Below, one piece after another: positions 25,400 to 49,836 of a stretch of 64,000 nt of DNA (position 1 is its first letter; each line of letters opens with the position of its first letter). Under the pieces are notes generated by a model. That model was given only the letters and a program-made list of their open reading frames with translations, did no database searches and was not told the DNA's origin. Source of the stretch: Archangiaceae bacterium (GTDB taxonomy: Bacteria > Myxococcota > Myxococcia > Myxococcales > Myxococcaceae); assembly GCA_016879935.1 (NCBI GenBank), contig JAACJQ010000307.1, positions 1 through 64,000 of the forward strand, read 5' to 3'. The translations under genes were made by a program, and so were the position numbers.

Positions 25400-25879
25400 T
25401 CATTCTGTTGGGGTGAGGAAGCTGACATGGCAGGTGACGCACGTCTGAATGGTCCGGCCATAGGCATCGGCCACCGCGGCGTCGTCGCGGTTCTTTGCGG
25501 CCTCGGCGAGGGCTTTTGCGCGTTCGCGAAGCTCGTCCTGGAGCAAGAAGAAGCGTTCGGGCAGGGCGCTGTTCAGCTCGTCCCTCGTGTCAGGGAGAGG
25601 TCGGGTGATGCGGGGTTCGCCCGAGATGGTCTGGGCGACGGCCACGACGACGTCACGTCTGAGCAACACCACACCCGTGGCGAGCTGATTCAGATCGCGG
25701 CCGTGACGCTCCATGCGCCGTCGGAGCAACTGTCGCGCGAGCTCGTTCAGAATGGGCGGCGCCTTCTCGGTCTTTTCGACCTTCTCGGCGACGGGCCTGG
25801 GCTCCTTCTTCGGAGTCTTCTCGTCCGCGAACGCGGGGGACAGCGACAGCACCACGACTGCCAGGAGGAGAGGTCGCAT
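25400..25879 (-). CDS. Small periplasmic c-type cytochrome-like protein
   Basis: From ATG 25877-25879 the product has 159 residues with a clean signal peptide (MRPLLLAVVVLSLSPAFA). A GTG start at 25909 would add ten residues and spoil the signal. The mature part is helical and charged. A single haem c attachment motif CVTCH lies at 147-151, close to the C-terminus. This is the pattern of four-helix cytochrome c' -like proteins, which carry CxxCH at the end of the last helix. Function is unknown; it may shuttle electrons or bind a gas. It is divergent from the universal stress protein gene. Confidence 0.78.
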   Translation of the reverse strand: MRPLLLAVVVLSLSPAFADEKTPKKEPRPVAEKVEKTEKAPPILNELARQLLRRRMERHGRDLNQLATGVVLLRRDVVVAVAQTISGEPRITRPLPDTRDELNSALPERFFLLQDELRERAKALAEAAKNRDDAAVADAYGRTIQTCVTCHVSFLTPTE

Positions 25880-25972
25880 GACTGCTTTCGGTAGCAAGCA
25901 GACGGCCACGATGTCGCTGTCGGCCCGACATGTGCAAAGCCCTGTAGCGAGGCCCGTAGCCGGAGGAGCACC

Positions 25973-26383
25973 ATGAAGAAGATCCTCGTGGCGATCGATG
26001 GTTCAGAAGCGGCGATGCACGCCGTGCGCACCGCCGTGACGCTCGCGAAGGGGCTGCATGCCGATCTCACCCTCGCGCATGTGGTTCCTCCGACGTTCGT
26101 TCCCCCCGAGGTTCCCTTTGGCGTTCAGCCGTGGACCGACGAGGCCGTTCAGGCCGGCGAGCGGTTGCTCGAAGAGGCCGTCGCCGAGGCCGGCATCACC
26201 TGCGATCGCCTCAACGTCACGGGTTCACCGGCGGAGCGCCTGGCCGACATCGCCGATCAGGGCGCGTTCGATCTCGTCGTCGTGGGCTCGAAGGGACGGG
26301 GCGCGGTGGCTCGGATGCTGGTAGGGAGCGTCACCGACCGCCTCGTCCACATCTGCAAACGCCCGATTCTCGTGGTCCGCTAA
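25973..26383 (+). CDS. Universal stress protein, UspA family
   Basis: This single-domain Usp has 136 residues. It starts [17 protein letters not shown], and the C-terminal nucleotide-binding motif reads [19 protein letters not shown] followed by CKRPILVVR. The G-2x-G-9x-G(S/T) spacing is intact, so ATP binding is expected. Usp proteins support survival under starvation, oxidative or respiratory stress. A strong ribosome binding site (GGAGGA) precedes ATG 25973. The gene is divergent from the cytochrome gene and 51 bases upstream of the NtrC-type regulator. Confidence 0.93.
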
Positions 26384-26434
26384 CCATCTCGCAGAAATTG
26401 CCGCCGCCCCAAGGGGCGCGCAGGAAATGCACTC

Positions 26435-27832
26435 ATGGCACATCGAATCCTGGTGGTGGACGACGAGCAGAACGCGCGTGAAGGGCTCACGACGATCCTC
26501 CGAGAGGAAGGGTACGACGTCGTCGAGGCCGCCGACGGTGAAGCAGGCCTCGAGAAGCTGACGCAGACCAACCCTGACGCGGTGCTCTGCGACATCAAGA
26601 TGCCGAAGATGGACGGCCTGCAGCTGCTCAAGCGGGCGCGCGCCGACGGCTTCGACAACCTGTTCATCATGGTGACGGCGTTCGGGAGCATCGAGACGGC
26701 CGTCGAGGCGATGCGGGGCGGGGCGCACGACTACATCACCAAGCCCGTCGACGTGAGCGCGGTGCTGGTGAAGCTCGAGAAGGCGCTCGAGACGCGGCAG
26801 CTGCGACGCGACAATGCGCTGTTGCGGGAGCGGCTGCACGAGAAGCACCGCTTCAACAACATCGTCGGCGAGAGCGGCGAGCTGCAGGCCGTGTTCGACG
26901 TGGTGAAGCGCGCGGCGCCGACGAAGGCGACGGTGCTGGTGCTTGGTGAGTCGGGTACCGGCAAAGAGCTCATCGCCCAGGCGATTCATGAAGAGTCGCA
27001 GCGGCGCGACAAGCCGTTCGTGAAGGTGAACTGCGCGGCCCTCAGCGAGACCCTGCTCGAGTCGGAGCTGTTCGGCCACGAGAAGGGGAGCTTCACGGGG
27101 GCGGCGGGCAAACGCGAGGGTCGCTTCGAGCTCGCCGATGGCGGCACGCTCTTCCTCGACGAGATCGGCGACGTGACGCCTGCGCTGCAGGTGAAGCTGT
27201 TGCGGGTGCTCCAGCAGAAGGAGTTCGAGCGCGTCGGCGGTACGCAGACGTTGAAGGTCGACGTGCGCGTGGTGGCGGCGACGAACAAGGATCTCGCGGC
27301 CGAGGTGAAGGCCAGCAAGTTTCGCGAAGACCTCTACTACCGCCTCAACGTGGTGAGCGTGACGCTGCCGCCGCTGCGCAAGCGCAAGTCAGACATTCCT
27401 TCGCTCGTGAGCCACTTCATCGAGAAGTACAACGACGCTCACGGCAAGACGGTGAAGGGCCTCGCGCCGGGCACGCTGAACGCCCTCTTGTCCTATGACT
27501 GGCCGGGCAACGTGCGCGAGCTGTCGAACGTGGTGGAGCGCGCCGTCGTGCTTGCCCGTGAGAACGAGCTCACCAGTGACGACCTGCCGGCGACGCTGCG
27601 TGGCCCGCGGCCGAAAGATCGCAGCCCCGACTCCCTCATTCCGGGCGCGACGCTGTACGAGATCGAGCGCGAAGCCATTCTGCGCACGCTCGAGATGGTC
27701 GACGGCTCGACCTCGCGTGCCGCCGACATTCTGGGCATCTCGGTGCGCAAGATTCAGTACCGGCTCAAGGAGTACGCGCAGCAGGACGCGGGTGCGCCGA
27801 TTCCGTCTGACGATCACCACGAGCCGAACTGA
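26435..27832 (+). CDS. Sigma-54-dependent response regulator, NtrC family
   Basis: The 465-residue protein has a receiver domain (1-120; phosphoacceptor Asp53 in [11 protein letters not shown]), a sigma-54-activating AAA+ domain (about 140-375; Walker A GESGTGKE at 171-178) and a C-terminal Fis-type helix-turn-helix ([18 protein letters not shown]). The sigma-54 contact loop reads GSFTGA at 218-223 instead of the usual GAFTGA, a tolerated variant in this family. It should activate sigma-54 promoters after phosphorylation by an unlinked kinase; no kinase is adjacent on this strand. Start ATG 26435; the preceding gap holds a small GCCC-CAAG-GGGC palindrome (26406-26417). Confidence 0.95.
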
Positions 27833-27844
27833 GCGACGGCCGGC

Positions 27845-28750
27845 GTGGCCTCGGGCGACGAGCTGCTGAGCCTCGTGTACCAGTCGCCCGAGCTCGACGA
27901 GCCGCGGCTGGTCTATGGCGACTGGCTGCAGCAGCAGGGCGACGGTCGCGCCGAGTTGCTGGTGCTGCAGCTCGAGGCGAAGCCGGGGAGAGACGAGCTG
28001 GCGCGCGCGAAGGCGCTGGTTCGTCAGTTCGGCCGAAGCTGGCTGGGTCGTCTCGCGCCTGTGATCGCGAAGGGCACCGAGCAATTCTCCCGTGGCTTCC
28101 CCTCGGCCGGGGCCGTCACCTTCTCGACCCAGGCGCTGTGTGACGAGCTGACGGGGCTGCCAGCCTGGAACACCTTCACCGCGCTCGCGGGTGGCGTGCC
28201 TCATTTCTTCGTGGGCACCGAGCTGCGCGGGCTCGAGTCCCTCTCGGTCATGGGTGACGAGGTCGTGCCGCTGCTCGCCCGCCGGCCGTGGCCCTTTCGC
28301 AGACTCGAGCGGCTGTCGGTGCGCTGGTGCTCGTCGTTCACGCTGCCGGCGTTGAACGAGCTCGACGTACCGGCCTTGCGACACCTCGAGCTCGCGCCGA
28401 ACCAGGGCGAACGCGAGCGGCTGCCAGGTGTGTTGGCGAAGCTCGAGCCCGTGGTGGGGCGGCTCGAGTCACTGCGTGTCGAGAGGCTGGGCGACGAGCC
28501 GACCCTCCGCGCGCTGCTGGCGAAGACCCGCTTGCGTCGGCTCGAGCTCGATTCGCCCTCGGTCGTGTTTCATCGGGTGAGGAACGTGTGGGTGCTCGAG
28601 GTGCTGCGCACGCCGAAGCGCCTTCCCTCGTTGAGCGCGTTGTTGCCGCTGGTCGCGGCGATCGTCGAGCCCGACGCGCGGTGGGGTGATCGGCGAGCGG
28701 GCGTTCGCGCCGACCTGCAGCGCCTCGGCCTCGAGCTGGTTCAGCTCTGA
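27845..28750 (+). CDS. TIGR02996-domain protein (first of three)
   Basis: The 301-residue protein starts at GTG 27845. The N-terminus carries the repeat-companion signature of TIGR02996 (LDEPRLVYGDWLQQQGDGRAELLVLQ). The rest has leucine-rich, LRR-like character (LRGLESLSVMGDE, LRHLELAPN, LRRLELDSP). This family is expanded in myxobacteria and has no established function; LRR-like folds usually bind proteins. The gene lies 12 bases after the NtrC-type regulator and may be co-transcribed. Its last ten bases overlap the convergent receiver-kinase gene. Similar genes occur at 41864-42757 and 49837-50823. Confidence 0.8.
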   Translation: MASGDELLSLVYQSPELDEPRLVYGDWLQQQGDGRAELLVLQLEAKPGRDELARAKALVRQFGRSWLGRLAPVIAKGTEQFSRGFPSAGAVTFSTQALCDELTGLPAWNTFTALAGGVPHFFVGTELRGLESLSVMGDEVVPLLARRPWPFRRLERLSVRWCSSFTLPALNELDVPALRHLELAPNQGERERLPGVLAKLEPVVGRLESLRVERLGDEPTLRALLAKTRLRRLELDSPSVVFHRVRNVWVLEVLRTPKRLPSLSALLPLVAAIVEPDARWGDRRAGVRADLQRLGLELVQL

Positions 28751-29829
28751 TGGGGAGCGCGAGGCAGGCTGACGGTGAAGCGTGCGCCGCCCAGCGGCGA
28801 GCGGCTGACCGACATGGTGCCGCCGTGCTGCGTGATGATGGTGTGGGTGATCGGCAGCCCGAGACCTGAGCCCGTCGACTTGGTGGTGAAGAAGGGCTCG
28901 AAGATGCGATCGAGCTGCTCGACGGGAACGCCGGGGCCGTCGTCGTCGACGTGCACCTCGATGGTAGTGGGCTGCTGCTCGACCGACAGCTTCACGTGCC
29001 CGCCCTCGCGGGTCGCATCGAAGGCGTTGAGCAGCAGGTTCATGAAGACCTGGCGCAGCTGATCACCATCACCGAGTACGGCGCTGGCCTGGCCGATGTC
29101 GGCCTCGAGCTTCACCTTTCGTCGCTCGGCGTCGGTGCCGATGAAGGCGATCACCTTCTCGAGCACGGGCCCGAGCGGGAGTGGCCTGGGCGACAGGTGC
29201 AGCGGTCGCGCGAACTGGAGGAAGTCCTGGAGGATGTGCTCGAGGCGGCGAATCTCGTCTCGCACCAGCGTGAGCGGCTCCAGCAGCGGCGCTTGAATGG
29301 AGGGCTCGAGCTTACGCAGGCGTCGCTCCAGCACCGACAGCTGCAGGCCCGCGGCGTTGAGCGGGTTGCGAATTTCGTGTGAGAGCCCGGCCGTCAAGGT
29401 GCCGACCGCGGCGAGCTTCTCGGCCACCTGTGCGCGGCGGGCGAGCTCTCGCTTTTCCTGCTGCGCCTGCACGTGACGCACGGCCTTGTCGAGCGTCGAC
29501 AACAGATCGGGCACGGGTGTGGGCTTGATGAGGTAGGCCCAGACGCCGGCGCGCACCGCCTCGGCGGCCGACTCCACTGACGCGTGGCCGGTGAGCAGAA
29601 TCACTTCACAATCGGGGTTCTCGTTCTTCAGCTTGATGGCGAGCGTGGTGCCATCGCCATCGGGCAGCTTCAGATCGACGAGCGCCACCTGCACCCAGGC
29701 CCGGCCCACCTCGAGCGCCTGGCTGCACGACCCCACCGAGCGCACCTCATGGCCGAGCTCTTCGAAGATCTCGCGCAGGTTCTCGACGTAGGCGCGGTTG
29801 TCTTCGACGAGCAGCAGTCTCGCGGTCAC
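28741..29829 (-). CDS. Receiver-histidine kinase hybrid, third gene of a phosphorelay operon
   Basis: The 362-residue cytoplasmic protein has an N-terminal receiver (Asp52 in VDLKLPDGDG), a coiled linker and a HisKA-HATPase module. The phosphoacceptor is His151 in LSHEIRNPLNA. ATP boxes are NLLLNAFDATREGG, DDGPGVP and GSGLGLPITHTII. The start GTG at 29829 overlaps the stop of the upstream two-receiver gene in a GTGA; the frame is open further up, but that region is coding in another frame. It probably receives phosphate on Asp52 or is gated by it, then signals onward. No DNA-binding output domain exists in the three-gene operon. Confidence 0.9.
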   Translation of the reverse strand: MTARLLLVEDNRAYVENLREIFEELGHEVRSVGSCSQALEVGRAWVQVALVDLKLPDGDGTTLAIKLKNENPDCEVILLTGHASVESAAEAVRAGVWAYLIKPTPVPDLLSTLDKAVRHVQAQQEKRELARRAQVAEKLAAVGTLTAGLSHEIRNPLNAAGLQLSVLERRLRKLEPSIQAPLLEPLTLVRDEIRRLEHILQDFLQFARPLHLSPRPLPLGPVLEKVIAFIGTDAERRKVKLEADIGQASAVLGDGDQLRQVFMNLLLNAFDATREGGHVKLSVEQQPTTIEVHVDDDGPGVPVEQLDRIFEPFFTTKSTGSGLGLPITHTIITQHGGTMSVSRSPLGGARFTVSLPRAPHQS

Positions 29830-30533
29830 GTGGGCTGGTACTCGCGGTAGAGCGCCTCGAGGCGGTTGAGCACCGTGGCCGTGTCGAAGGGTTTGAAGAA
29901 GCACTCCTGCGCGCCGGCGGCCTGCGCCTCGTCACGAAACGCCGTCATCACGATGGTGGGAATGCCGGGCCAGCGCTCGTGCACCCGCTGGAGCGCCTCG
30001 CCAAACCCGGCGTCGGGCAGCTTGAGATCGACCAGCACTGCGAAGGGGCGCGCCGAGACGCGGCCAAGCTCCTTCACGTCTGCAGCAGTGACCGCGGTGA
30101 GCCCGCGAGACGCCAGCGCCTCGGTGAGGTTGTCGGCGAGCGCGACGTCGTCTTCGACCAGCACCACCGCACCGCCGCGGCGCGCCGACTCGAGAATCTG
30201 GATCAGCCGGGGGATCTGCTGGGGCTTCGAGAGCACCGCGAGCAGGCCGTCGCGCCTGGCCATTCGCAGCAGCTCTTCCTGGCTGTAGGCCGAGAGGAGC
30301 ACCGCAGGCAGCTCGCCGTCGATCTTCCTCAGCTCGCGCAACAGCTCGGCCCCGTTCATGCCAGGCATGCGCATGTCGGTGACGAGCGCGTCGTAGCGCT
30401 GTGCCTTCACCCGGGCGATCGCGTTCGGCCCGTCGAGGGCGATGTCGACCTCGGCGCCGGTGTCGCGAAGAATCTCGGCCAGGTTTTCGGCGAACGCTTC
30501 GTTGTCGTCCACCAGCAGGTAGTGACGAATCAT
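29826..30533 (-). CDS. Two-receiver response regulator without output domain
   Basis: The 235-residue protein consists of two CheY-like receiver domains in tandem and nothing else. The first has phosphoacceptor Asp53 (VTDMRMPGMNG) and Lys in LSKPQ. The second has Asp169 (VLVDLKLPDAG) and Lys in FFKPFD. Both carry the paired acidic residues at their N-terminal ends (VDDNE, VEDDV). The ATG at 30533 overlaps the stop of the globin kinase (ATGA), and its own stop overlaps the next gene. Tandem receivers usually act as phosphate relays or sinks between kinases. Placed between two kinases, this one is a plausible relay. Confidence 0.9.
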   Translation of the reverse strand: MIRHYLLVDDNEAFAENLAEILRDTGAEVDIALDGPNAIARVKAQRYDALVTDMRMPGMNGAELLRELRKIDGELPAVLLSAYSQEELLRMARRDGLLAVLSKPQQIPRLIQILESARRGGAVVLVEDDVALADNLTEALASRGLTAVTAADVKELGRVSARPFAVLVDLKLPDAGFGEALQRVHERWPGIPTIVMTAFRDEAQAAGAQECFFKPFDTATVLNRLEALYREYQPT

Positions 30534-31654
30534 GATGTGGCCTCCTGGAGCCGAACGGTGAACCTGGCCCCTCCGAGTGTTCCGCGTGTCGCGTCGATTG
30601 TACCTCCGTGCCGCTCCACGATGCGCTTGACGAGCGCGAGCCCCAGCCCGATGCCCTTGGGCTTCGTCGTCACCAGCGGCTCGAAGAGGCGGCCGACCAC
30701 CGAGGGGTCGATGCCCGGCCCACTGTCTTCGATGGTGAGCTCGATGAAGGGGCCCACCTTCGTCGCGGTCACCACCACGCGACCCTGCGGAGAGGCTGCG
30801 TGAATCGCGTTGTCGAGCAGGTTCAGGAAGACCTGGCGCAGCTGAATCGGGTCGCCCGAGAGCTGGGGCAGCGGGCCCTGGGGGAACTCGATCGTCACGC
30901 CCTCGGGCCTGGTGATGGCCTGGGTGAGTGCGGCGAACAGGTCGTCGAGGCTGACGCGCTGGCGGCCAAGCGGTCGGTCGCGAATGAGATCGAGCAGCTG
31001 CGTGATGATGTCGTTCGCGATGTTCACCTGACCGGCGATGCGATCGAGGTGCTTGGTGACCTTCGGGTCGGCGTCGTTGCGCGACTTGAGAACGTAGATG
31101 CTGGTCTCGATGACGCCGAGCGGGTTTCGCAGCTCGTGGCCGATGCTGCCGACGAGCTGCCCGAAGGTGGCGAGCCGCTCTGCACGAACCTGCCGGGCCT
31201 CGAGATCCTGCCGGTAGGTGTGCAGCATGAGCGCGAGATCGAGATCGAGTACGCGCTCGAGTGCCACGCGGTGCGGCTCGTGCGAGGGCATCGGAACCGC
31301 GCCGAGCAGGTGCTGGCGCACGAGGTTCATGGCCGTCACCATGTAGTGCTGGGGCAGCCCGATGCGCACGTGCATGGAGCCGATGCGTGCGCGGCGCTCG
31401 AGGTAGGCCTCGTCCCACGGGCCGCGAAAGAGCTCGGCCATCCACTGGCGGAGCGTCACCTTCAGCTGGCCGACGCGTCGCTCGCCACGCTCGAGCGCAG
31501 CCCTCGCTTCGTCGTGCGCGAGCACCTGCGCGTAGAAGGTGTCGATCGTCTCGGGAAAGACGTGGGCGACGACGGGCTCGAGCTCTCGCAGGAGCCGCTC
31601 GTCGGCCTCGCTGAACCCGACGTATCGCTTCAGCTCTGCGAAGAGGTTCTGCAT
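30530..31654 (-). CDS. Globin-coupled sensor histidine kinase
   Basis: The 374-residue cytoplasmic protein has an N-terminal protoglobin/globin-coupled sensor domain (about 1-150). It shows FSEADERLLRELEPVV, the proximal haem ligand His95 in IGSMHVRIGL, and PQHYMVTAMNLVRQHL after it. Then come HisKA with His173 (SIGHELRNPLGV) and HATPase (NLLDNAIHAASPQG, EDSGPGID, GIGLGLALVKRI). Such sensors bind haem and detect O2, NO or CO; the ligand here cannot be read from sequence. Start ATG 31654 matches the family N-terminus. It is divergent from cheW with a 60-base shared upstream region, so the relay and the chemosensory operon may be co-regulated. Confidence 0.9.
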   Translation of the reverse strand: MQNLFAELKRYVGFSEADERLLRELEPVVAHVFPETIDTFYAQVLAHDEARAALERGERRVGQLKVTLRQWMAELFRGPWDEAYLERRARIGSMHVRIGLPQHYMVTAMNLVRQHLLGAVPMPSHEPHRVALERVLDLDLALMLHTYRQDLEARQVRAERLATFGQLVGSIGHELRNPLGVIETSIYVLKSRNDADPKVTKHLDRIAGQVNIANDIITQLLDLIRDRPLGRQRVSLDDLFAALTQAITRPEGVTIEFPQGPLPQLSGDPIQLRQVFLNLLDNAIHAASPQGRVVVTATKVGPFIELTIEDSGPGIDPSVVGRLFEPLVTTKPKGIGLGLALVKRIVERHGGTIDATRGTLGGARFTVRLQEATS

Positions 31655-31714
31655 CGTGGGCCCGTGTATCGACTGCTTTCCGCCGAAGCAAACCTGTGCT
31701 GAAACCTCACGCCC

Positions 31715-32140
31715 ATGGCGGAGGGACCGAGGGGACATCTGGTCTTCGCGTGCGGGGGCAGCCTGTACGCGGTTCCTGCCGAGCGGGCGTCTGAGGTCGT
31801 GAACCTGCCGGTGCTCACCCGTGTGCCGGGGGCGGCGCCGCACCTGCTCGGCGTGTTCGCGCACCGCGGCGAGGTGCTGCCGGTGATCGACCTCGCACGG
31901 CTCATCGGCAAGCCCGTCGACGAGATCTTCAAGCGTGTGGTGCTGGTGCGCGTCGGCAAAGGCGCGATGGCCTTCACGGCGACCAAGGTGATCGGAGTCG
32001 CTCCCATCGAGGGCGCGCCGCCGCGGCTCGGAGAGTCGGGCGCGCTCGCCTTCATGCACGGCCCGGCGCGCGTTCCCGCTGGGGAGTGCGCGGCCATCGA
32101 GCCCGAAGGGTTGCTCGAGTACCTCTCGAGGGGGCGCTGA
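31715..32140 (+). CDS. cheW: CheW-type coupling protein
   Basis: The 141-residue protein is a single CheW domain: HLVFACGGSLYAVPAERASEVV, a loop with GAAPHLLGVFAHRGEVLPVIDLARLIG, then RVVLVRVGKGAMAF. CheW couples receptors to the CheA kinase in chemosensory arrays. It is the first gene of a tightly packed operon running to cheR. The next gene begins on the base after its stop. The ATG at 31715 gives the usual short lead before the first beta strand. Confidence 0.9.
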   Translation: MAEGPRGHLVFACGGSLYAVPAERASEVVNLPVLTRVPGAAPHLLGVFAHRGEVLPVIDLARLIGKPVDEIFKRVVLVRVGKGAMAFTATKVIGVAPIEGAPPRLGESGALAFMHGPARVPAGECAAIEPEGLLEYLSRGR

Positions 32141-32494
32141 GTGGCCTCGGTCGACGGGGTGGTGTTGTGCGTCGTCTCTGGCGCCCGCCTCGCCGTCTCG
32201 GCTGATCAGGTCGACGCGATCGCCACTGCCGAGGGGCCCGTCTGGGACGCGGGCGTCGCGTTCGGCGCCACCTCCGACCCGGCAGGGCGTGCGCTCCAAT
32301 GCCTCGGGCGCCTCATTCGTTTCGACAGCATCGACGTGGTGGCCACGGTCGGGTTACCCGTGTTGCCGGTGCCCGCAGCGCTCGTGAACACCGCGCACGG
32401 TGCGCTGACGGGCTTCGTCGAGCTCTCGGGCACGTTGTGGCCGCTCGTCGCGCTCGATCGTCTGCTCGGCTTCCTCGAAGCGAGGTCGCGATGA
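32141..32494 (+). CDS. Shortened CheW-like protein
   Basis: The 117-residue product, starting at GTG 32141, is weakly CheW-like. It has an opening strand (VVLCVVSGARLAVSADQVDAI) and a second-half pattern (VNTAHGALTGFVELSGTLWPLVALDRLLGF). The segment between is shorter than in normal CheW, and the central conserved glycine/arginine loop is not obvious. It could be a divergent second coupling protein or a receptor-specific adaptor. It lies between cheW and the first MCP, with its stop overlapping the MCP start (ATGA). Confidence 0.65.
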   Translation: MASVDGVVLCVVSGARLAVSADQVDAIATAEGPVWDAGVAFGATSDPAGRALQCLGRLIRFDSIDVVATVGLPVLPVPAALVNTAHGALTGFVELSGTLWPLVALDRLLGFLEARSR

Positions 32495-34272
32495 CGACGC
32501 CGCTGCCGAAGGGCCGCAGCCGGTGGATCACGAACCCCTCGACGATCGCGGCGCCGCTCGGCGTGCTGATCGGCGTCTCGTACGTGGCAAGCACCTTGTC
32601 GCTGCCGGAAGGAACCGGCCGTTGGTACGCCGGCCTCATCGTTGCCGTCGTCATCGTCTTCAACGTCTCGGCCGATCTCTGGGAGCAGACACGGCTGAAG
32701 ACGATTCGTGGCCTCGGCGATGGCACGATCGCTCCGAGCCCCGCGACGCTCGAACAGGCCGCTCGCGAAGCGTCGCAAGCCGCTACGACGACCTTCTTCC
32801 TCGCGTTGGGGGCCTTCGTCGTGGGCTCGGGGGTGATCGCCGCGCTCTGGTACGCCATCGCCCATCCTCCGTTGATCGTGGCGGTGCGAATCGGGTTGGT
32901 CGGGCTGTTGGTGGGCCCGATCACGGCCGTGATGGCGAACCTGCTGGTGCTGCCCCGGGCGCGACGGGTGCTGCATGAGCTCGCCGCGGCCGGTTTGAGC
33001 CCCGACGCGCTCGCGCGCGCCGTGCCCGTTCAGTACGCGCTGCGCCGTCGACTGGTGCTCTACGCTGCGGTGGCCGTGTTGACGCCGATGATGCTGGTGG
33101 CCGACGCGAGCCTGGCCCGGTCGAACGAGATCTTCGAGAAGGTGCGGGCGCAGCCTGACGTGGCGAGCGCCAGGGCGGTGATGGAGGCCCAGAAGGCAGA
33201 GGGCTTCGGCGCGCTCTCGGGCCTGGGCGTGGTGACCGTCTTCATGGTGGTGCTCTGCGGGTGGCTGTCGGGCAGCGTGCTGGGCGACCCGCTCAACAAG
33301 CTCGGGCAGGAGACGGAGCGCCTCGCGAAGGGCCGCTACGAGCGTGGGCGGCTGGTGGTGGCGGAGAACGAGATCTGGGCGGCAGCGACCGCCATGACCG
33401 CGATGGAGGCGCACCTGCTCGACGCCGTTGGTGGCGCGAAGGAGGCCTCACGCGGCATTCGTGACGCCGCCGTCGAGCTGGTCGAGAACGGCACCCAGCA
33501 GGAGCAGGGCGCAGCCGAGCAGTCGGCCGCCTTGATGGCCACCACCGCGACGACCGAAGAGCTCGCCCGTAGCGCCCGGCAGATCTCGGCGAACGCCCAG
33601 CGCGTGTCGGAGATCGCGCGGGGAACGCTCGCGGCGGCGCAGGGCGGCAAGGCCAGCGCCGAGTCGTTCACCTCGGCCATGGGAGAGGTGCGCGGCGGCA
33701 ACCAGGCCATCGCCGACTCGGTGGTGAAGCTGAACAAGCGCGTGCAGCAGGTCGGCCGCATCATCGAGTTCATCGACGGCATCGCCGACAAGTCCGACCT
33801 GCTCGCGCTCAACGCCGAGCTCGAGGGCCACAAGGCGGGCGACGTGGGGCAGGGCTTCGGGCTGGTGGCCGCCGAGATGCGCCGGCTCGCCGAGAACGTC
33901 ATGACCTCGACCCGCGAGATCGCTCGGCTCATCGAAGACATTCGTGACGCGACCAACGCGGCGGTGATGGCGACCGAGGCTGGTGTGAAGGCGACGGACT
34001 CTGGCGCGGCCCTGGCGGCGAAGGTGAGCAACTCGCTGGGTGACATCGTCGAGTTCGCCAACCTCTCGGCTGACGCCATGCAGAGCATCAGCCTCGCCAC
34101 GGTGCAGCAACAGGCGGGCAGCGATCAGCTCGTCGCCGCGATGGAGGACATCAACCGGTCGACGCGGAAGAACGTCGAGAGCGCGAAGGAGATGGCCAGC
34201 ACGCAGACGGCGCTGGTGACGTTGTCGAAGGAGCTCGAAGAGGTCGTCGACACCTTCGGAGGCCGCTCGTGA
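32491..34272 (+). CDS. Methyl-accepting chemotaxis protein without large sensor domain (first)
   Basis: The 593-residue protein starts at ATG 32491, overlapping the previous stop. The N-terminal 270 residues carry about five to six hydrophobic segments with short loops instead of a periplasmic ligand domain. A HAMP-like segment (GDPLNKLGQETERLAKGRYER) leads into a long coiled-coil signalling domain. The tip reads DKSDLLALNAELEGHKAG and GFGLVAAEMRRLAENV, so NLLALNA-AIEAARAGE of classic receptors is altered to DLLALNAELEG. Gln/Glu pairs suitable for CheR/CheB modification lie nearby (QEQGAAEQSAA). It probably senses a membrane state or acts through a partner. Confidence 0.9.
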   Translation: MTTPLPKGRSRWITNPSTIAAPLGVLIGVSYVASTLSLPEGTGRWYAGLIVAVVIVFNVSADLWEQTRLKTIRGLGDGTIAPSPATLEQAAREASQAATTTFFLALGAFVVGSGVIAALWYAIAHPPLIVAVRIGLVGLLVGPITAVMANLLVLPRARRVLHELAAAGLSPDALARAVPVQYALRRRLVLYAAVAVLTPMMLVADASLARSNEIFEKVRAQPDVASARAVMEAQKAEGFGALSGLGVVTVFMVVLCGWLSGSVLGDPLNKLGQETERLAKGRYERGRLVVAENEIWAAATAMTAMEAHLLDAVGGAKEASRGIRDAAVELVENGTQQEQGAAEQSAALMATTATTEELARSARQISANAQRVSEIARGTLAAAQGGKASAESFTSAMGEVRGGNQAIADSVVKLNKRVQQVGRIIEFIDGIADKSDLLALNAELEGHKAGDVGQGFGLVAAEMRRLAENVMTSTREIARLIEDIRDATNAAVMATEAGVKATDSGAALAAKVSNSLGDIVEFANLSADAMQSISLATVQQQAGSDQLVAAMEDINRSTRKNVESAKEMASTQTALVTLSKELEEVVDTFGGRS

Positions 34273-36062
34273 CGGCGCAGGCCAACCTGACGGCGTGGCT
34301 GCCCGGGCGAGGCCGATGGCTGATGCTGCCGTCGACGCTGGGCAACTCGTTGGTCGCGCTGCTCGCGGCCCAGTACGCCGCAGCCACCTTCCGGTTCCCC
34401 GAGGGCGTCATCGGCACCTTCTGGATTCTGGTGGTGACGGTGGCGTCGATGGGCGTGGGCCTCGCCGAGGTGGTGGCCTCGCGGCGGCTCGCGACGCTGC
34501 GTGGGCTCGCGGCTGGGCGTCTGCCCATCACCGACTCCAACCGGCTCAAGGCCATCGACGAAGCCCGTCGGTTCCCCGATCAGATCTCACGCCTCGGCGT
34601 GGTGATGTGGCTGCTCGCCGTCTCGTTCGTCGCGGTGCTGCTGTGGTCGATCGAGCAGGTGTCGTGGTCGTTGCTGGTGCGCATCGAGATGATGGGGCTC
34701 CTGTTCGGCCCGATGGCGGCCGTCGTCGTCGGGCTGCTCGTGGGGCGGCGGGCACACGCGGTCGTGGAGCGCCTCGCCGAGGGGCTCTCTCCCGATGCCA
34801 TCGTCAGCGCGCTCGAGACGCCGACCGTCTCGGTGCGAAGCAGGCTGGTCGCCTTCACGGTGGTGATGGTGGCGTTGCCGTCGCTGGTCGCCATCGACGT
34901 GACGCGCGCGCTCGGCACCGACGTCATCGAAGGCTGGGTGGCGAGCACGGCCCCCGATCGAGACGCGGTCGCGGCGGCCGCGCAGACGATGGTGCTGCTC
35001 AAGACGGCCGTGTTGATTCTGCTGACGGCGGTGATGGCGACGGTGGCGGCTGCCGTGGGAGGAGGGCTCTTGGCCGACCCGCTGCAACGGGTGGCGGAGG
35101 AGGCGAGCGGCCTCGCCCAGGGTCGGCTCGATGCGGCGGCCCTGATCGCGGGTGACGGTGAGGTGTGGCTCATCAGCAACGTGTTCTCGCGGCTGAAGGA
35201 ACGGCTCGTCGGGCTGGTGAAGAAGCTCTCGTCGGCCACCCTGGGCATCGCGCGCGCGGCGGGTACGCTCCAGCAGGCCTCGCAGGACTCCGAAGCGGGC
35301 GCTGCCGAGCAGGCCGCGGCGTTGAATCAGACCTCGGCGACGACGGAAGAGCTCGCCCAGAGCGCCCGGCAGATCGCCTCGAGCGCCGCGAGCGTGCAGG
35401 AACTCGCGCAGAAGACGCTCGAAGCGGCAGAGTCCGGGCTCGCGAGCGCCGACTCGTTCCGCGCGGCCATCGAGCGCATGCGGCAGGACAACCGCTCCAT
35501 CGCGGCGGCCGTCGATCGCCTGACGGGCCGTGTCCAGCAGATCGGGCGCATCGTCGACGTGATCAACACGGTGGCCGATCGCAGCGATCTGCTCGCCTTG
35601 TCGGCCGAGCTCGAAGGCACGCGCGCTGGCGAGGTGGGGCGCGGGTTCTCGCTGGTGGCGGCCGAGATGCGCCGGCTCGCCGAGAACGTGCTCGAGTCGA
35701 CGGCCGAGGTCGAAGAGCTGATCAGCGAGATTCGCACCGCCACCAGGCAGACCTCCGACGCGACCGAGCGTGCCCGCACCCTCACCGAGGGCAGCACCTC
35801 GCTCGCCGACGAGGTCGTGCGCTCGCTCACCAGCGTGGCGCAGTCGGCACGGCAGACCTCCGACGCGGTGCGCACCATCAGCCTCGCGACCCAGCAGCAG
35901 CAGACCGGCACCGATCAACTCGCCGAGGCGATGGCCGACATCCTGGGCATCACCCAGCAGAGCCTCGCCAGCACGCGTCAGCTCACCGCCGCCAACGAGC
36001 GGCTCCAGGCCCTCTCGACGGTGCTGGCCGAGGTGGTGAACCGCTTCGAGCAACGCGCATGA
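34269..36062 (+). CDS. Methyl-accepting chemotaxis protein without large sensor domain (second)
   Basis: This paralogue of the preceding receptor has 597 residues. It starts at GTG 34269, overlapping the upstream stop. Layout is the same: multiple N-terminal membrane segments, a HAMP-like stretch (ADPLQRVAEEASGLAQGRLD) and a coiled-coil signalling domain with tip DRSDLLALSAELEGTRAG. The two proteins are alike along the signalling domain and more divergent in the membrane part, as expected after a tandem duplication with different inputs. The following cheA start overlaps its stop (ATGA), so the stoichiometry of receptors and kinase is probably set by translational coupling. Confidence 0.9.
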   Translation: MTAQANLTAWLPGRGRWLMLPSTLGNSLVALLAAQYAAATFRFPEGVIGTFWILVVTVASMGVGLAEVVASRRLATLRGLAAGRLPITDSNRLKAIDEARRFPDQISRLGVVMWLLAVSFVAVLLWSIEQVSWSLLVRIEMMGLLFGPMAAVVVGLLVGRRAHAVVERLAEGLSPDAIVSALETPTVSVRSRLVAFTVVMVALPSLVAIDVTRALGTDVIEGWVASTAPDRDAVAAAAQTMVLLKTAVLILLTAVMATVAAAVGGGLLADPLQRVAEEASGLAQGRLDAAALIAGDGEVWLISNVFSRLKERLVGLVKKLSSATLGIARAAGTLQQASQDSEAGAAEQAAALNQTSATTEELAQSARQIASSAASVQELAQKTLEAAESGLASADSFRAAIERMRQDNRSIAAAVDRLTGRVQQIGRIVDVINTVADRSDLLALSAELEGTRAGEVGRGFSLVAAEMRRLAENVLESTAEVEELISEIRTATRQTSDATERARTLTEGSTSLADEVVRSLTSVAQSARQTSDAVRTISLATQQQQTGTDQLAEAMADILGITQQSLASTRQLTAANERLQALSTVLAEVVNRFEQRA

Positions 36063-38245
36063 GCCTCAACCGCGAAAAGCTGCTCGCGCAGTTTCGTGAG
36101 CTCGTGGTGGAGCGGCTCGCCAAGGTGAACCGCGCGCTCATGTCGCTCGAGGCTGGCGCCGACGTCGAGGCAGGCAAGGCGTCGCTGCGCGAGCTGCACG
36201 GGCTGAAGGGCGAAGCGCGCATGATGGGCTTCGCCGAGGTGAACACCCTGGTGCACCAGATGGAGGAGCTGGTGCGCACCGTCGAGCCGCTCGGCTACGA
36301 GGTGGGCCCCGGGAGCGTCGATGCGCTGCTCGTCGCGTCCGACGCGGTGGGCGTGCTGGCGGGGGCCGTTCAGGGCGCTCCAGTCGAACTCCCGCGCCTG
36401 CTCGAGTGGTTGGGGCAGGCGATCGCGACCGAGAAAGCGCGTGTGGCGCAGGTGATGCCGGCCGCAGCCGCGGTGCCCGTGCCGCAACCTCCGCCGTCGG
36501 CACCCGAGGCGCGGCCAGCAGCTCCCGTCGTCGCCAGGCCGCCTTCGGCACCAGCGGGCTCCGATGCCGCCACGATTCGCATCAGCCAGCAGAGCCTCGA
36601 GGTGCTCACCAGCGCCGTGACGACGCTGCAGCAGGTCGGGCGGCGCCGCGAGCTGAACGCGTCACGACAGCGCGTGCTCGCGAAGGAGCTCGCGGTGCTC
36701 CAGCGCCTCGCGGAAGACCTGGGGCCCGAGGCGCAGGCGCTCGCCGCCCGGCTCGGCAAGGTGAAGGAGCTCTCGGGCGACATCAACCGGCTGCAGACGC
36801 TCATTCAGACCGACGAGGTGCGCGAGCTGACGGTGTTGACCGAAGAGATTCAGGCGCTGCGCATGCTGCCGCTCGGCCTTCTCTTCGACGCGTACCCGCG
36901 CATGGTGCGTGAGCTGGCGCGCGATCTCGGCAAAGAGGTCGAGCTGCGCGTCGACGGCGAAGACGAGCGCATCGATCGCACCGTGCTCGACGTGCTCAAA
37001 GATCCACTGCTCCACCTGGTGCGCAACGCCATCGATCACGGCCTCGAGCCCCGCGAAGAGCGCGTCGACTCTGGCAAGAACGCGAAGGGCACGCTCTGGC
37101 TCTCGGCGCGCCGAGAAGGTGAGCGGCTCGCCCTGCGCGTGCAGGACGATGGGCGTGGGTTGTCGGGGTCGACGCTGCGGCAGGTGGCCGTGCGCAAGGG
37201 GCTCATCGATCAGGCAACGGCCGACGGGCTGACCGATCTCGCCGCCATCGATCTCGTCTTCCTGCCGGGCTTCACCTCGAAGGACGAGGTCACCGACGTC
37301 TCTGGCCGTGGGGTGGGGCTCGACGTGGTGAAGACGCGGCTGCAGCAGATCGGCGGCGAGGTGACGGTGACGTCGTCGCCGGGCGAAGGCTCGACGTTCG
37401 AGCTCAAGGTGCCGCTGTCGCTGACGGTGGCGCCGGTGCTCTTCGTGCAGACGGGTGACGAGCGGTTCTGCGTGCCCGCGGCGAACGTGCTGCGGGCGCT
37501 GCAAGTCGAGGCGACGCAGGTGCGCGAGGTGGCGGGCCGCCCGGCCGTGGTGGTCGACGATGCCGTGCTGCCGTACCAGTCGATCGCCTCCATCCTCGCG
37601 GGAGCTCCGGAGCGGCCCGTCTCGGACGGAGAGGTCGTGCTCGTGGTGCGCGGGCGCGGCCAGACGGCGGCCATCGGCATCGATCGGGTGCTCGATGAAC
37701 GAGTGCAGGCCATTCTTCCCCTCCGAGGGCTGCTCTCGCGCTTCGGGCACCTCTCGGGGGCGACGCAGCTCCCGGACGGCACCCTGGCGATGGTGCTCTC
37801 GGCGCCGCACCTCGTGGCCACGGCGCACGGCCGCGAGCTCAAGCTCTCTGCGCAGCTGAGCGCGAAGGTCGAGGCGCGCAGACGCCGGGTGTTGGTGGTC
37901 GACGACTCTCCGCTGACGCGCGAGCTGCTGGTCTCGCTGCTCGAATCGGTGGGCTACGAGATCGTCCAGGCGGGCGACGGGGCCGAAGCGCTCGACCGGC
38001 TCGCTCGTGAGGTCGTCGACGCCGTGGTGACGGACCTCGAGATGCCCACCGTCGATGGGCTCGAGCTGACGAGGCGCCTCAAGGTGCACCCGACCCTCAA
38101 GAGCCTGCCAGTGGTGATCGTCACGACACGTGGCAGCGAACAGGACCGGCGACGTGGCATGGAGGCAGGCGCCGATGGGTACGTGACGAAGGGCGACCTC
38201 GTGCGACAAGATCTGGTCGACGTCGTCGCGCGGCTGCTCGCCTGA
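36059..38245 (+). CDS. cheA: CheA-CheY fusion chemotaxis kinase
   Basis: The 728-residue protein begins with an Hpt (P1) domain with phosphoacceptor His47 (LHGLKGEARMMGF). A Pro/Ala linker takes the place of a P2 domain. Dimerisation and ATPase domains follow (LVRNAIDHGLEPREER, DDGRGLSG, GRGVGLDVVKTRL), then a CheW-like regulatory domain. A C-terminal receiver begins at about 600 ([15 protein letters not shown], phosphoacceptor in VVTDLEMPTVDG). The arrangement resembles FrzE of Myxococcus xanthus. The frame is open far upstream, but ATG 36059, overlapping the receptor stop, is the start of the Hpt domain. No separate cheY is in the operon, so the fused receiver probably serves as output or phosphate sink. 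Confidence 0.93.
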   Translation: MSLNREKLLAQFRELVVERLAKVNRALMSLEAGADVEAGKASLRELHGLKGEARMMGFAEVNTLVHQMEELVRTVEPLGYEVGPGSVDALLVASDAVGVLAGAVQGAPVELPRLLEWLGQAIATEKARVAQVMPAAAAVPVPQPPPSAPEARPAAPVVARPPSAPAGSDAATIRISQQSLEVLTSAVTTLQQVGRRRELNASRQRVLAKELAVLQRLAEDLGPEAQALAARLGKVKELSGDINRLQTLIQTDEVRELTVLTEEIQALRMLPLGLLFDAYPRMVRELARDLGKEVELRVDGEDERIDRTVLDVLKDPLLHLVRNAIDHGLEPREERVDSGKNAKGTLWLSARREGERLALRVQDDGRGLSGSTLRQVAVRKGLIDQATADGLTDLAAIDLVFLPGFTSKDEVTDVSGRGVGLDVVKTRLQQIGGEVTVTSSPGEGSTFELKVPLSLTVAPVLFVQTGDERFCVPAANVLRALQVEATQVREVAGRPAVVVDDAVLPYQSIASILAGAPERPVSDGEVVLVVRGRGQTAAIGIDRVLDERVQAILPLRGLLSRFGHLSGATQLPDGTLAMVLSAPHLVATAHGRELKLSAQLSAKVEARRRRVLVVDDSPLTRELLVSLLESVGYEIVQAGDGAEALDRLAREVVDAVVTDLEMPTVDGLELTRRLKVHPTLKSLPVVIVTTRGSEQDRRRGMEAGADGYVTKGDLVRQDLVDVVARLLA

Positions 38246-38307
38246 TGGCCGGGTGAACGAGTGGCGGGAGTTCGGGGACCGCAGTACGCAAAGGGTGAGT
38301 GACGACG

Positions 38308-39396
38308 ATGAGCCGCAAGTGTCAGGTGCTGGTGGTCGACGACTCGCCGCTGTGTCGGCAATTGATCGTCGATGCCATCACGCGCGACCCCGACGTCGAG
38401 GTGGTGGGGCAGGCCGAGAACGGTGAAGAGGCCATCGCGAAGACGATCGAGCTCAAGCCGAACGTCATCACGATGGACGTCGACATGCCGGTGCTCGACG
38501 GGTTGGGCGCGTGCGAGCGCATCATGTCGGAGACGCCCACGCCGATTCTCGTGCTCACGGCCGACCCGCGGAACCAGGCGCCCGAGTTGACGCATCGGGC
38601 CCTCGCTGCCGGCGCCCTCGCGTTGCAGGTGAAGCCCGCGATGGATGCGGGCCCCGAGGCGTGGAACCTCGCGCGTGAGGTGAAACTGCTCTCGACGGTG
38701 AAGGTGATTCGGCATCTGCGTGGCGTGAAGAAGTCGACCAGCACCACCGGGGCCTTCTCGTCGGCGGGCTCGTCACCCTCCAGCGAGTCCCACGTTGCGC
38801 CAGGCGCGGCGTCCGCCGTCGGGCTCGTGGTGGTCGCCTCGTCGACTGGCGGCCCGCAGGTCGTGCACAAGCTCGTCAGCGATCTGCCGGCTGATTTCCC
38901 CGCGCCGGTGTTGATCGTTCAGCACATCAACGCGGCCTTCGCCGATTCGCTCGTCGGTTGGCTCGGCACCTCGGCCAAGCTGAAGGTGCGCGGCGCAAAA
39001 GATGGAGATCTGCTGACGCCGGGCACGGTGTTGATCGCTCCGTCGGGGTCGCACCTCACGGTGCCCTCGCGTGGGCGCGTCGCAGTGATGCCCGGTGAAC
39101 CACGAGATGGGCACCTGCCTTCGGCGACGATGCTGCTCGAGTCGGCGGCGAAGGCGTACGGCAAACGCGTCGTCGGCGTGATCCTCACTGGCATGGGCAA
39201 CGACGGCGTCGACGGCCTGGCGGCGATTCGGGCGGCGGGTGGAAAGACGATCGCGCAGAGCCAGGAGTCGTGCGTGGTGTTCGGCATGCCGGGCGCGGCG
39301 ATCGCGAAGGGTGTCGTCGATCACGTGATTCATGGTGACGACGTGGGCAAGGCGCTGGTGCGGCTCGCGCGCGGGCAGGATCCGTCGAGGCCCTGA
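38308..39396 (+). CDS. cheB: Chemotaxis protein-glutamate methylesterase CheB
   Basis: The product has 362 residues from ATG 38308; GTG 38299 would add three. An N-terminal receiver (VLVVDDSPL, phosphoacceptor Asp57 in [12 protein letters not shown]) is joined by a Ser-rich linker to the CheB methylesterase/deamidase domain. The Ser-His-Asp triad is visible in [14 protein letters not shown] and GMGNDGVDG. CheB removes methyl groups from receptor glutamates and so resets sensitivity. It acts on the two receptors upstream, opposed by CheR encoded next. The 62-base gap before it is the largest in the operon. Confidence 0.95.
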
Positions 39397-40605
39397 GTGG
39401 AGGGCGATCTCGACCTGCTCTTCGAGCTCGTCTCCCGGCGCAGCGGCAGCGCGTTGTCGAAGCAGCAGCGGGAGCGTGTGCAGCAGTGCGCCGAGCGGCT
39501 GCGTGGTGGGCGGCCGTGGCCCAGCTTCGTCGACGAGCTGCACGGCCGGCAGGGCGCGATGGCGCTGCTCGAGCTGCTGGCCTCGGCCTCGGTGCACAAG
39601 ACCGATCTCTTTCGCGACGAGCCGCAGCTCGAGGCGTTGGAGCGGTACGTGCTCGCGCCGCTGGCCGAGTCGGGCAGGGCGCTGCAGCTGTGGAGCGCGG
39701 GCTGCGCGACGGGTGAAGAGGTCGCGACCTTGTTGTTGTTGCTGGCGCGCGTGGGCGCGAACCCTGCGAGCCGGGTGTTGGGCACGGACTTGTCGGCAAG
39801 CGCCCTCACGCAGGCGAGGCGGCTGACGTTCTCTGACGAGGCGATGCGGCGGGTGCCGGCTGCTCTCTCGGAGCGGTGGTTTCGGCGCAACGCTGAGGGC
39901 CTCGTGCTCGACCCGAAGCTCTCGGCGCAGGCGCGGTTTCAGCAGCACAACCTGGTCGAGACGCCGTACCCGTTTCCCGAGGTGGGCACCGGCTTCGACG
40001 TGATCGTCTGTCGCAACGTGCTCATCTACTTCACGCCCGAAGCTGCCGAGCGCACGGTGGGCCTGCTGGCGGAGCGCTTGCGGCGGGGCGGCACGCTGGT
40101 GCTGTCGGCGGCCGAGCCGATTCTGAAGCCGCGCGCCGATCTCGAGACGCTGCGAGTCGGGGGCACGTTCTTCTACCGGCCGAGAACGGAGCCGGTGCCC
40201 GAGGTGCGAGCGGTTCCGCCACCGAGGCCGAGCGCTCCCGTTCCGGTGCCGAGGCCGTCAGCGCCGGTGCGGGTCGAGGTTGCAGCAGTCGAGACGAAGT
40301 CTCCCGAGCAGGAAGGTGAAGAGCTGTTCTCGCTGGTGCTCGAGTGGTCGGCCGCGGGTCAGCCCGACAGTGAGACCGAGGCGGGGCTGCGCAAATCGCT
40401 GTACCTGTCGCCCGACCTCGCTGCGGCGCGGTACTGCCTGGGGTTGTTGCTCGACCAGCGTGGGCTGCGGGCCGATGCGACCACGGAATATCGGAGGGCG
40501 TTGTCGGTGCTCCAGTCTGGTCGCGCGCGGCCCACGCCGTTCTTCCTCAACCCCGAGCGATTGGCCGAAGCGTGTCGGCGCGCGTTGAGTCGTTTGAGCG
40601 CCTGA
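39397..40605 (+). CDS. cheR: Chemotaxis methyltransferase CheR with TPR tail
   Basis: The 402-residue protein starts at GTG 39397, directly after cheB. The SAM-dependent methyltransferase domain contains LQLWSAGCATGEEVATLLLLL (SAM binding), FDVIVCRNVLIYF and GGTLVLSAAEPI, all typical of CheR. A Pro/Val-rich linker (about 265-295) leads to a C-terminal TPR-like region (LYLSPDLAAARYCLGLLLDQRG). TPR-tailed CheR proteins occur in several myxobacterial chemosensory systems and probably dock to partner proteins. CheR methylates receptor glutamates. Confidence 0.93.
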   Translation: MEGDLDLLFELVSRRSGSALSKQQRERVQQCAERLRGGRPWPSFVDELHGRQGAMALLELLASASVHKTDLFRDEPQLEALERYVLAPLAESGRALQLWSAGCATGEEVATLLLLLARVGANPASRVLGTDLSASALTQARRLTFSDEAMRRVPAALSERWFRRNAEGLVLDPKLSAQARFQQHNLVETPYPFPEVGTGFDVIVCRNVLIYFTPEAAERTVGLLAERLRRGGTLVLSAAEPILKPRADLETLRVGGTFFYRPRTEPVPEVRAVPPPRPSAPVPVPRPSAPVRVEVAAVETKSPEQEGEELFSLVLEWSAAGQPDSETEAGLRKSLYLSPDLAAARYCLGLLLDQRGLRADATTEYRRALSVLQSGRARPTPFFLNPERLAEACRRALSRLSA

Positions 40606-41231: not shown

Positions 41232-41864
41232 TCAGTACAAGTCGCCGCTGCCGTCGTCGCCGAACTCGAGCAGCTCCCGCACTTCGCCATCGCGCCGTTG
41301 CGACACGACGCCCGAGAGCGGAACCGCTGGATGCACGCCATCGACGCACCCCTCGAACACCCCTGCTGGCACCGTCACGGAGCGTGCTCCACCGTCGGTC
41401 TTCGGCCGCTCGATCGCACGCCACGCGAGCTCGACGATCGCGGCCGGCACGCTGCCCAGGTGGTGAATCTCGGGCTTCTCGTCTTGCCGCACCCAGGCCT
41501 CGCTGAGCGCCGCTTCGAACGACGCGCGATCGACCGGCTGCTTCGTGAAGGTCAGTCGTACCCGCAGCTGTTCGCCGACCCCGAGGCGATCGATCGACAC
41601 GTGCAGATGATCCTGTCGGCCCGACACGGCCACACGCTCGAGGACCGTGCGCTCGTTCTGGGTGAGCAGGTGCACGGTGAACTGCCCGCGCCGCCACGCA
41701 GCGTTGACGTCGCTCGTCGCAGCAATCGTCTCGGGGCGCCGTTGTCGATAGTCGGCCAGCAACGCATCAGCGCGCTCATTCACGCCGGTGGCCACCGTTC
41801 GGCAACCAGACAGCACGACCAGCATCGTCAGCAGCACGCGCACGCGAGGCGCTCTTAGCGCCAT
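41232..41864 (-). CDS. Lipoprotein of unknown function
   Basis: The product has 210 residues from ATG 41864 (a GTG three bases earlier overlaps the upstream stop and is equally possible). The signal ends in lipobox VLSGC, so it is probably lipidated. The mature protein opens with helix ADALLADYRQRRP, as in LolA/VioE-type or YbaY-like outer-membrane-directed proteins, then alternates strands (FTVHLLTQNERTVLERV, LRVRLTFTKQPV). I do not recognise a specific family. It is translationally coupled to the TIGR02996 gene upstream and is followed by the BamE-like gene, giving a three-gene minus-strand unit. Confidence 0.7.
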   Translation of the reverse strand: MALRAPRVRVLLTMLVVLSGCRTVATGVNERADALLADYRQRRPETIAATSDVNAAWRRGQFTVHLLTQNERTVLERVAVSGRQDHLHVSIDRLGVGEQLRVRLTFTKQPVDRASFEAALSEAWVRQDEKPEIHHLGSVPAAIVELAWRAIERPKTDGGARSVTVPAGVFEGCVDGVHPAVPLSGVVSQRRDGEVRELLEFGDDGSGDLY

Positions 41865-42757
41865 CACGACTCGACGGCCTCACCCAACACGAGCGACGAC
41901 AACTTCGGCAGCCTGCGCGACAGCTGCATCACCCGCTTCGCGGCCCGCTCGGTGAGCCCGCTCCGAAGGAGATCGATCGTCGTCAGCCGTTCGATCGACG
42001 CGCCTTCCTCGAGCGCCGCGACGGCATCGACGCCCATCTCGGAGGCCTCGATGGTGAGCGCCTCGAGGGCCGGGAGCGCCAACACGTCTCGCACCGTCGC
42101 CGGCTCCACCTCGCCCGACACGATCAGCTTCACGCTTCGGAGCCGCGCTCCGTTCGACTCGAACAGCTGCTTCGCCGTGGTCTGCGTCCACCCGAGGAAG
42201 GCGATCTCGAGCGACGACAACCGGGCCAGCGCGGGCAAGGTGCCGCTGAGCTCTGGCACCGAGAGATGCAGTTGCTCCAACGCCGGCAGCGTCGTGGGAA
42301 TCGTCGTCAGCTCGAGCGTGCGCGGCGAATAGATAGTCAACGCCAACAACACGCGCGGCGCCGCCTGCTCGAGCACACGAAGCGACTCGGTCATCGGCTC
42401 CTGACCCAACGAGAGCGCGCGCACGAAGCGCATCGACGGGTGCGCCAGCAAGCGCTCGAGCTCGATTCGTTCACCCGGAGCCTGCTGCCGCATCAACGTC
42501 GCCGTGTGCACGAAGCCCCAGCGCCACTGCGCGACCGGCCCCGCGAGACAGCGAATGCCTGGTTCGTAGAGCAACGCTTTCACGCGCTCGCGCTGACGAC
42601 GATCGAGCGACGGCAAGAGCTGCAACGCGATCAACTCACCCCGGGCATCACCCGACTGCGCGAGCCAATCGCCGTACACCGCGAACGCTTGCGGGTCGTC
42701 GGGCGCCGCTTCGATCGCCGCCTCGAACGCATCGCGTTGTCTCACCTCAGCCGACAC
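41864..42757 (-). CDS. TIGR02996-domain protein (second of three)
   Basis: The 297-residue protein starts at GTG 42757 with a GGAG about eight bases upstream; a longer frame to 42826 lacks coding sense. The N-terminus has the TIGR02996 signature (AAPDDPQAFAVYGDWLAQSGDARGELIALQ). The rest is LRR-like (LEQLHLSVPELSGTLPALARL, SLEIAFLGW, LEALTIEASEMG). Function unknown. It heads the minus-strand unit with the lipoprotein and the BamE-like gene and is divergent from the M36 protease gene across 230 bases. Confidence 0.8.
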   Translation of the reverse strand: MSAEVRQRDAFEAAIEAAPDDPQAFAVYGDWLAQSGDARGELIALQLLPSLDRRQRERVKALLYEPGIRCLAGPVAQWRWGFVHTATLMRQQAPGERIELERLLAHPSMRFVRALSLGQEPMTESLRVLEQAAPRVLLALTIYSPRTLELTTIPTTLPALEQLHLSVPELSGTLPALARLSSLEIAFLGWTQTTAKQLFESNGARLRSVKLIVSGEVEPATVRDVLALPALEALTIEASEMGVDAVAALEEGASIERLTTIDLLRSGLTERAAKRVMQLSRRLPKLSSLVLGEAVES

Positions 42758-42906
42758 TTTCCGCGCTCCCAGACCGTGAGAAATCGCGCAACTCGTCGGT
42801 TTTCTGGCGAACACACCTCGGCACACACTGACAGCGCCGCCATGCTGTTATCTGGCTGTCGGCAGAAAACGAGCGCGTAAGTCTATGAAATAACACATCT
42901 ATCACC

Positions 42907-49760: not shown

Positions 49761-49836
49761 GGCGCATTTGTCTCGCACCCATCGGGCAGGCGCAACCACT
49801 GGCGGCGTCCTGGAGCGGGTCGTAGACACCGGCCTC

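Follow-up and report, generated by a model that had tools for sequence, protein, structure and literature searches.

A probable NmpRSTU oxygen-response locus beside a Che3-like chemosensory cluster in an uncultured member of the Myxococcaceae

The window (i.e., the whole stretch of DNA analysed here, 64,000 nucleotides) covers positions 1 to 64,000 of contig JAACJQ010000307.1 from the assembly GCA_016879935.1 of an Archangiaceae bacterium in the family Myxococcaceae. Judged by sequence comparison, three consecutive genes on its minus strand are very probably nmpU, nmpT and nmpS, and the gene at 26435-27832 is their output nmpR, of the oxygen-response system NmpRSTU, a multi-component system reported from Myxococcus xanthus (MXAN_4240, 4244-4246; PMC6211767, PMC11841059). 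The locus is an ordinary member of this already published system and is new only as a detail, namely in its gene arrangement and its host genus. An earlier note on the same DNA had described the trio as a relay with no output domain; this view is corrected by the NtrC-like NmpR, which is encoded next door as the convergent neighbour, and the puzzle of a relay without output is thereby removed. The four genes are as follows.

30530-31654, minus strand: nmpU orthologue, 374 amino acids, with Protoglobin (E 9.7e-34), HisKA and HATPase_c domains (Pfam); an oxygen-sensor kinase by orthology.
29826-30533, minus strand: nmpT orthologue, 235 amino acids, consisting of two Response_reg domains only (Pfam); a probable phosphate sink.
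28741-29829, minus strand: nmpS orthologue, 362 amino acids, GTG start, with Response_reg, HisKA and HATPase_c domains (Pfam).
26435-27832, plus strand: nmpR orthologue, with Response_reg, Sigma54_activat and HTH_8 domains; an NtrC-like sigma-54 activator with the phospho-Asp Asp53.

Coordinates and Pfam confirm the earlier description of the three genes, with their domain make-up, the 4-base overlaps of nmpU with nmpT (30530-30533) and of nmpT with nmpS (29826-29829), and the 60 bases between the nmpU start at 31654 and the start of a divergent cheW at 31715. The trio holds, as had been counted, two phospho-His (NmpU His173, NmpS His151) and three phospho-Asp (NmpT Asp53 and Asp169, NmpS Asp52). 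NmpS consists of an N-terminal receiver and a kinase, with no further sensor domain; PMC6211767 likens it in its discussion to EsxG (as spelled there) and Lvr, receiver-first hybrid kinases in which the N-terminal receiver is the input of the kinase. The nmpR gene is convergent with the trio and lies 0.9 kb past nmpS, with one gene between.

The globin domain of NmpU aligns over its length with the structure of AfGcHK from Anaeromyxobacter sp. Fw109-5 (PDB 5ohe, E 2.5e-43; further structures 5ohf and 6otd), a kinase of the same type, and His95 and Tyr41 of the window protein occupy the places of the proximal His99 and the distal Tyr45 reported for AfGcHK (PMC8697598). Conservation of the haem-ligand His95, on which the earlier note had made its reading depend, was found in 42 of 43 aligned sequences, the diverged sequence of locus L071 having a gap at this position; the distal Tyr41 is conserved to the same extent, in 42 of 43. 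AfGcHK is reported to bind haem and to show O2-switched autophosphorylation (PMC8697598), and NmpU of M. xanthus to depend on haem (PMC11841059). A haem-globin gas sensor heading a branched His-Asp relay, as first proposed from the letters of the window, is already on record for the orthologous NmpU/AfGcHK (PMC6211767).

The window shares with NmpRSTU of M. xanthus the same four domain architectures, the gene order U-T-S, the convergent nmpR beyond nmpS, the haem His, the phospho-His and phospho-Asp residues, and the DNA-recognition segment of NmpR. Every residue landmark of M. xanthus that was checked (NmpU H96, Q61, Q217 and Q283; NmpR D54 and V87; NmpS D59; landmarks from PMC6211767 and PMC11841059) is present in genome G028, which was called Myxococcus-like on the basis of these residues. 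The nmp-linked regulator of G028 shares 70% identity with NmpR of the window, as compared with at most 50% for the remaining NtrC-type proteins of G028; the 11-residue DNA-recognition segment is identical in the two and is the same in 22 of 37 NmpR sequences. Unlike in M. xanthus, where the nmpR operon is headed by a CBS-domain gene, nmpR of the window is preceded by a universal stress protein gene (usp), nmpR and nmpS have a TIGR02996-domain gene between them, a paired NmpR operator was not detected upstream of nmpU, and nmpU is flanked by a Che3-like cluster. Among the NCBIfam matches listed, none of the four Nmp proteins had an equivalog above the cut-off.

A full-length relative of NmpU is encoded in 41 of the 60 genomes searched, which places the trio far beyond chance. 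Neighbourhoods were surveyed at 42 loci from 40 relatives, in which the window proteins were placed by tblastn and NmpR was called at an identity of at least 60% to NmpR of the window. Both nmpT and nmpS follow nmpU at 35 of the 42 loci; nmpS occurs without nmpT at two (L041, L047), nmpT without nmpS at one (L055), and neither at four (L068, L070, L071, L072). NmpR is convergent downstream at 29 loci, lies elsewhere in the stretch at five, and was not seen at the 60% threshold at eight, among which L039 has part of an NmpR where the contig ends and G013 encodes NmpR on another contig. With the window, this studied system gains a member in an uncultured genus of myxobacteria that is represented here by metagenome bins. 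The nmpU-like copies L055 (G058) and L072 (G052) have incomplete surroundings and belong to genomes with a second copy; in that of L072, Gln replaces the phospho-His.

Gene content, orthology, synteny and the conserved ligand and phospho-residues were established in this analysis; what the system senses, which way phosphate moves, the inversion of the logic and the type of regulon would be as published for M. xanthus and Anaeromyxobacter. By that analogy, NmpU would bind haem via His95, Tyr41 being the distal residue, and its kinase would be on in the O2-bound state. From His173, phosphate would pass both to the NmpS receiver, by which the NmpS kinase would be held off, and to receiver 1 of NmpT, which would act as a sink. 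When oxygen falls, NmpU would stop, and NmpS would become active and phosphorylate NmpR at Asp53; phospho-NmpR would then activate sigma-54 promoters, those in its own locus as well as those of genes for oxygen use. In M. xanthus, NmpU phosphorylates the NmpS receiver directly and also receiver 1 of NmpT, an nmpR deletion is epistatic to mutations in nmpU, and of the receivers tested with NmpS, NmpR alone became phosphorylated (PMC6211767). The silencing of NmpS is indirect in that paper, i.e., the D59A variant was more active, and direct control by phosphorylation was not demonstrated in vitro. Regarding helix 1 of the receivers, the mean identity is 0.47 between NmpT receiver 1 and NmpS and 0.22 between either of them and NmpR (ungapped; a proxy for phosphotransfer), a pattern in line with the published choice of partners.

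NmpT is viewed as a sink in the published papers (PMC6211767, PMC11841059), a point of that system on which genomes with nmpU, nmpS and nmpR and without nmpT bear. Such genomes are G023 (L041) and G050 (L047), members of different families in which nmpU is directly followed by nmpS, nmpR is kept and nmpT is missing; they fit NmpT as a sink and argue against a required relay step. That NmpT is instead an obligatory step between NmpU and NmpS/NmpR would agree with its presence at 36 of the 42 loci and with the conservation of Asp53 in 37 of 37 and of Asp169 in 35 of 37 sequences, and is very unlikely in the face of these two genomes and of the direct phosphorylation of the NmpS receiver by NmpU in M. 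xanthus.

Several results weigh against the assignment to NmpRSTU. In G016 (L063) and G033 (L067), U-T-S is kept and no NmpR of at least 60% identity was found genome-wide; the output of the relay may differ there, and NmpT of both also lacks the second phospho-Asp, the two genomes being of one genus and thus a single observation. As published for M. xanthus, nmpU and the nmpR operon each have an operator with two copies of GCGCA-N5-TGCGC and a sigma-54 site, a regulatory feature that is not taken here to define the system; in the window, neither a paired operator nor a single site was found upstream of nmpU, and upstream of nmpR no paired operator in proper form. Genome-wide, paired sites gave 11 matches as compared with 58 for the reversed control pattern, i.e., they are not enriched, and no regulon can therefore be called from paired sites. 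Single sites and further elements of regulatory DNA in the window are listed below.

26418-26432, plus strand: single site similar to the NmpR consensus, one mismatch, directly before the nmpR start and overlapping the ribosome-binding region.
25921-25936, plus strand: conserved sigma-54-like element upstream of usp-nmpR, taken as a lead only.
25893-25908, minus strand: sigma-54-like element divergent from the preceding one, the two being placed between usp-nmpR and a cytochrome c'-like gene.
Within 31655-31714, on the nmpU strand: conserved 12-base element GCACAGGTTTGC, about 45 bases upstream of the nmpU start.

The site before the nmpR start recurs as GCGCA-N5-TGC in 7 of 7 aligned relatives, where it mostly overlaps the ribosome-binding region; at L040 the match is perfect and the site is clear of that region. 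In favour of NmpRSTU, consensus sites are in excess before nmpR over the whole set of loci: sites with at most one mismatch occur within 250 bp upstream of nmpR at 15 of 33 loci (2.9 expected), and perfect consensus sites before nmpR at five of 33 (0.33 expected); upstream of nmpU, sites with at most one mismatch were counted at nine of 38 loci (3.4 expected). The cbb3 oxidase genes were considered as a target and rejected: the single perfect consensus site, weak evidence as such, lies about 0.3 kb upstream of ccoN (contig C207), inside the end of a P-type ATPase gene. The internal spacing of the two divergent sigma-54-like elements is conserved in all sequences compared (8/8); the role of the one on the minus strand is doubtful because the likely start codon is only a very short distance away. 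The element GCACAGGTTTGC is identical in the window and in six loci of the same genus (7/7), did not occur elsewhere in the fetched loci (754 kb), and could serve nmpU, cheW or both. It was not taken as a sigma-54 promoter of nmpU, the spacing from the -24-like to the -12-like part being, on our reading, one base too short.

Beyond the 60-base gap, the window continues with the chemosensory (che) genes.

31715-40605, plus strand: Che3-like cluster cheW-cheW2-mcp-mcp-cheA-cheB-cheR (mcp, methyl-accepting chemotaxis protein), identified by Pfam and by comparison with G028 and G015.

The cluster resembles that of G028, which is probably of the Che3 type, in having CheW, a second CheW-like protein, two methyl-accepting chemotaxis proteins, CheA, CheB and CheR in the same order. 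CheA of the window is 59-62% identical to CheA of the same-order clusters in G028 and G015 (59% over residues 148-727 in the case of G028). In these two genomes, cheW is flanked by a divergent pair, an NtrC-type gene and a gene for an OmpA-domain lipoprotein; from synteny and the gene list of Che3, we take the cluster to be probably Che3 and the flanking pair to be crdA/crdB. In the window, by contrast, this pair does not adjoin the cluster and nmpUTS occupies its place, an arrangement that is new; a crdA-like (72% identity) and an ompA-like gene lie together on contig C401 of the same genome. Since crdA/crdB do not adjoin it, the cluster is named Che3-like only. Judged from its closest studied counterpart, the cluster beside nmpU would be a chemosensory system of the gene-expression type: Che3 and CrdS are reported to set the phosphorylation state of CrdA, which is a sigma-54 regulator and acts on the timing of aggregation in development (PMC3510030).

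The earlier note had considered it plausible that the relay feeds motility through this operon, in which case NmpT would act in a CheY-like manner or as a sink for CheA under the globin kinase. Closeness of the divergent operon speaks for such a link, as does its conservation: che genes, counted with the window che proteins as tblastn queries (E at most 1e-8, identity at least 45%, so that unlike che genes could be missed), lie upstream of nmpU at nine of the 42 loci, i.e., at all six loci of the same genus and in G018, G023 and G021 (cheW alone), and GCACAGGTTTGC between nmpU and cheW is confined to the genus within the 754 kb scanned. The link is nonetheless highly improbable, and it was ruled out as the main explanation by the neighbourhood of the 42 loci. 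No such che genes were found near nmpU at 33 of them (28 with at least 5 kb upstream, five with less than 5 kb), whereas adjacency of nmpR is common; the che cluster is found apart from nmp in G015, G012, G016 and G028; and in G023 the complete che cluster stands next to nmpU although nmpT is missing. The proximity to che genes that the earlier note wished to see in relatives is thus present in some and absent in most. The published partners of NmpU and NmpS are NmpT, NmpS and NmpR, CheA apparently being outside the tested set, and the link to motility in M. xanthus runs through NmpR and transcription of pilR (PMC6211767), and the nearest Myxococcus-like counterpart of the che operon is of the Che3 type, flanked by crdA and acting on a transcription regulator.

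That the globin kinase uses an output other than NmpR, e.g., a CrdA-like regulator elsewhere in the genome, for which the Che3-like neighbour and the CrdA relative on C401 could be cited, is extremely unlikely given the linked, conserved NtrC-type NmpR and, in M. xanthus, the epistasis of nmpR and the specificity of NmpS for NmpR (PMC6211767).

With NmpRSTU retained as the assignment, it is conceivable, if rather improbable, that the Che3-like array has swapped its partner in this uncultured genus of the Myxococcaceae and that its CheA has come to adjust the phosphorylation of NmpR or NmpT in the way that Che3 acts on CrdA. A partner-swapped CheA of this kind would join oxygen and chemosensory signals on one sigma-54 regulon. 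No paper joining nmp and che was found among those searched, "chemosensory" having been seen alongside NmpR/NmpU only in the title of a reference; the words chemosensory and chemotaxis are absent from PMC11841059. In G021 (L040), only cheW lies beside nmpU and the best CheA elsewhere in the genome is 35% identical; the Che3-like cluster seems to have been lost there apart from cheW.

The remaining genes around nmpR are the following.

25973-26383, plus strand: usp, upstream of nmpR.
27845-28750, plus strand: TIGR02996-domain gene between nmpR and nmpS.

The usp gene and nmpR are probably in one operon. The cytochrome c'-like gene at 25400-25909 adjoins usp-nmpR across the sigma-54-like elements. 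For the TIGR02996-domain gene at 27845-28750, no tblastn match was obtained in the 42 loci of relatives. Three genes with this domain, in each case near the N-terminus, are present in the window (27845-28750, 41864-42826 and 49708-50823).

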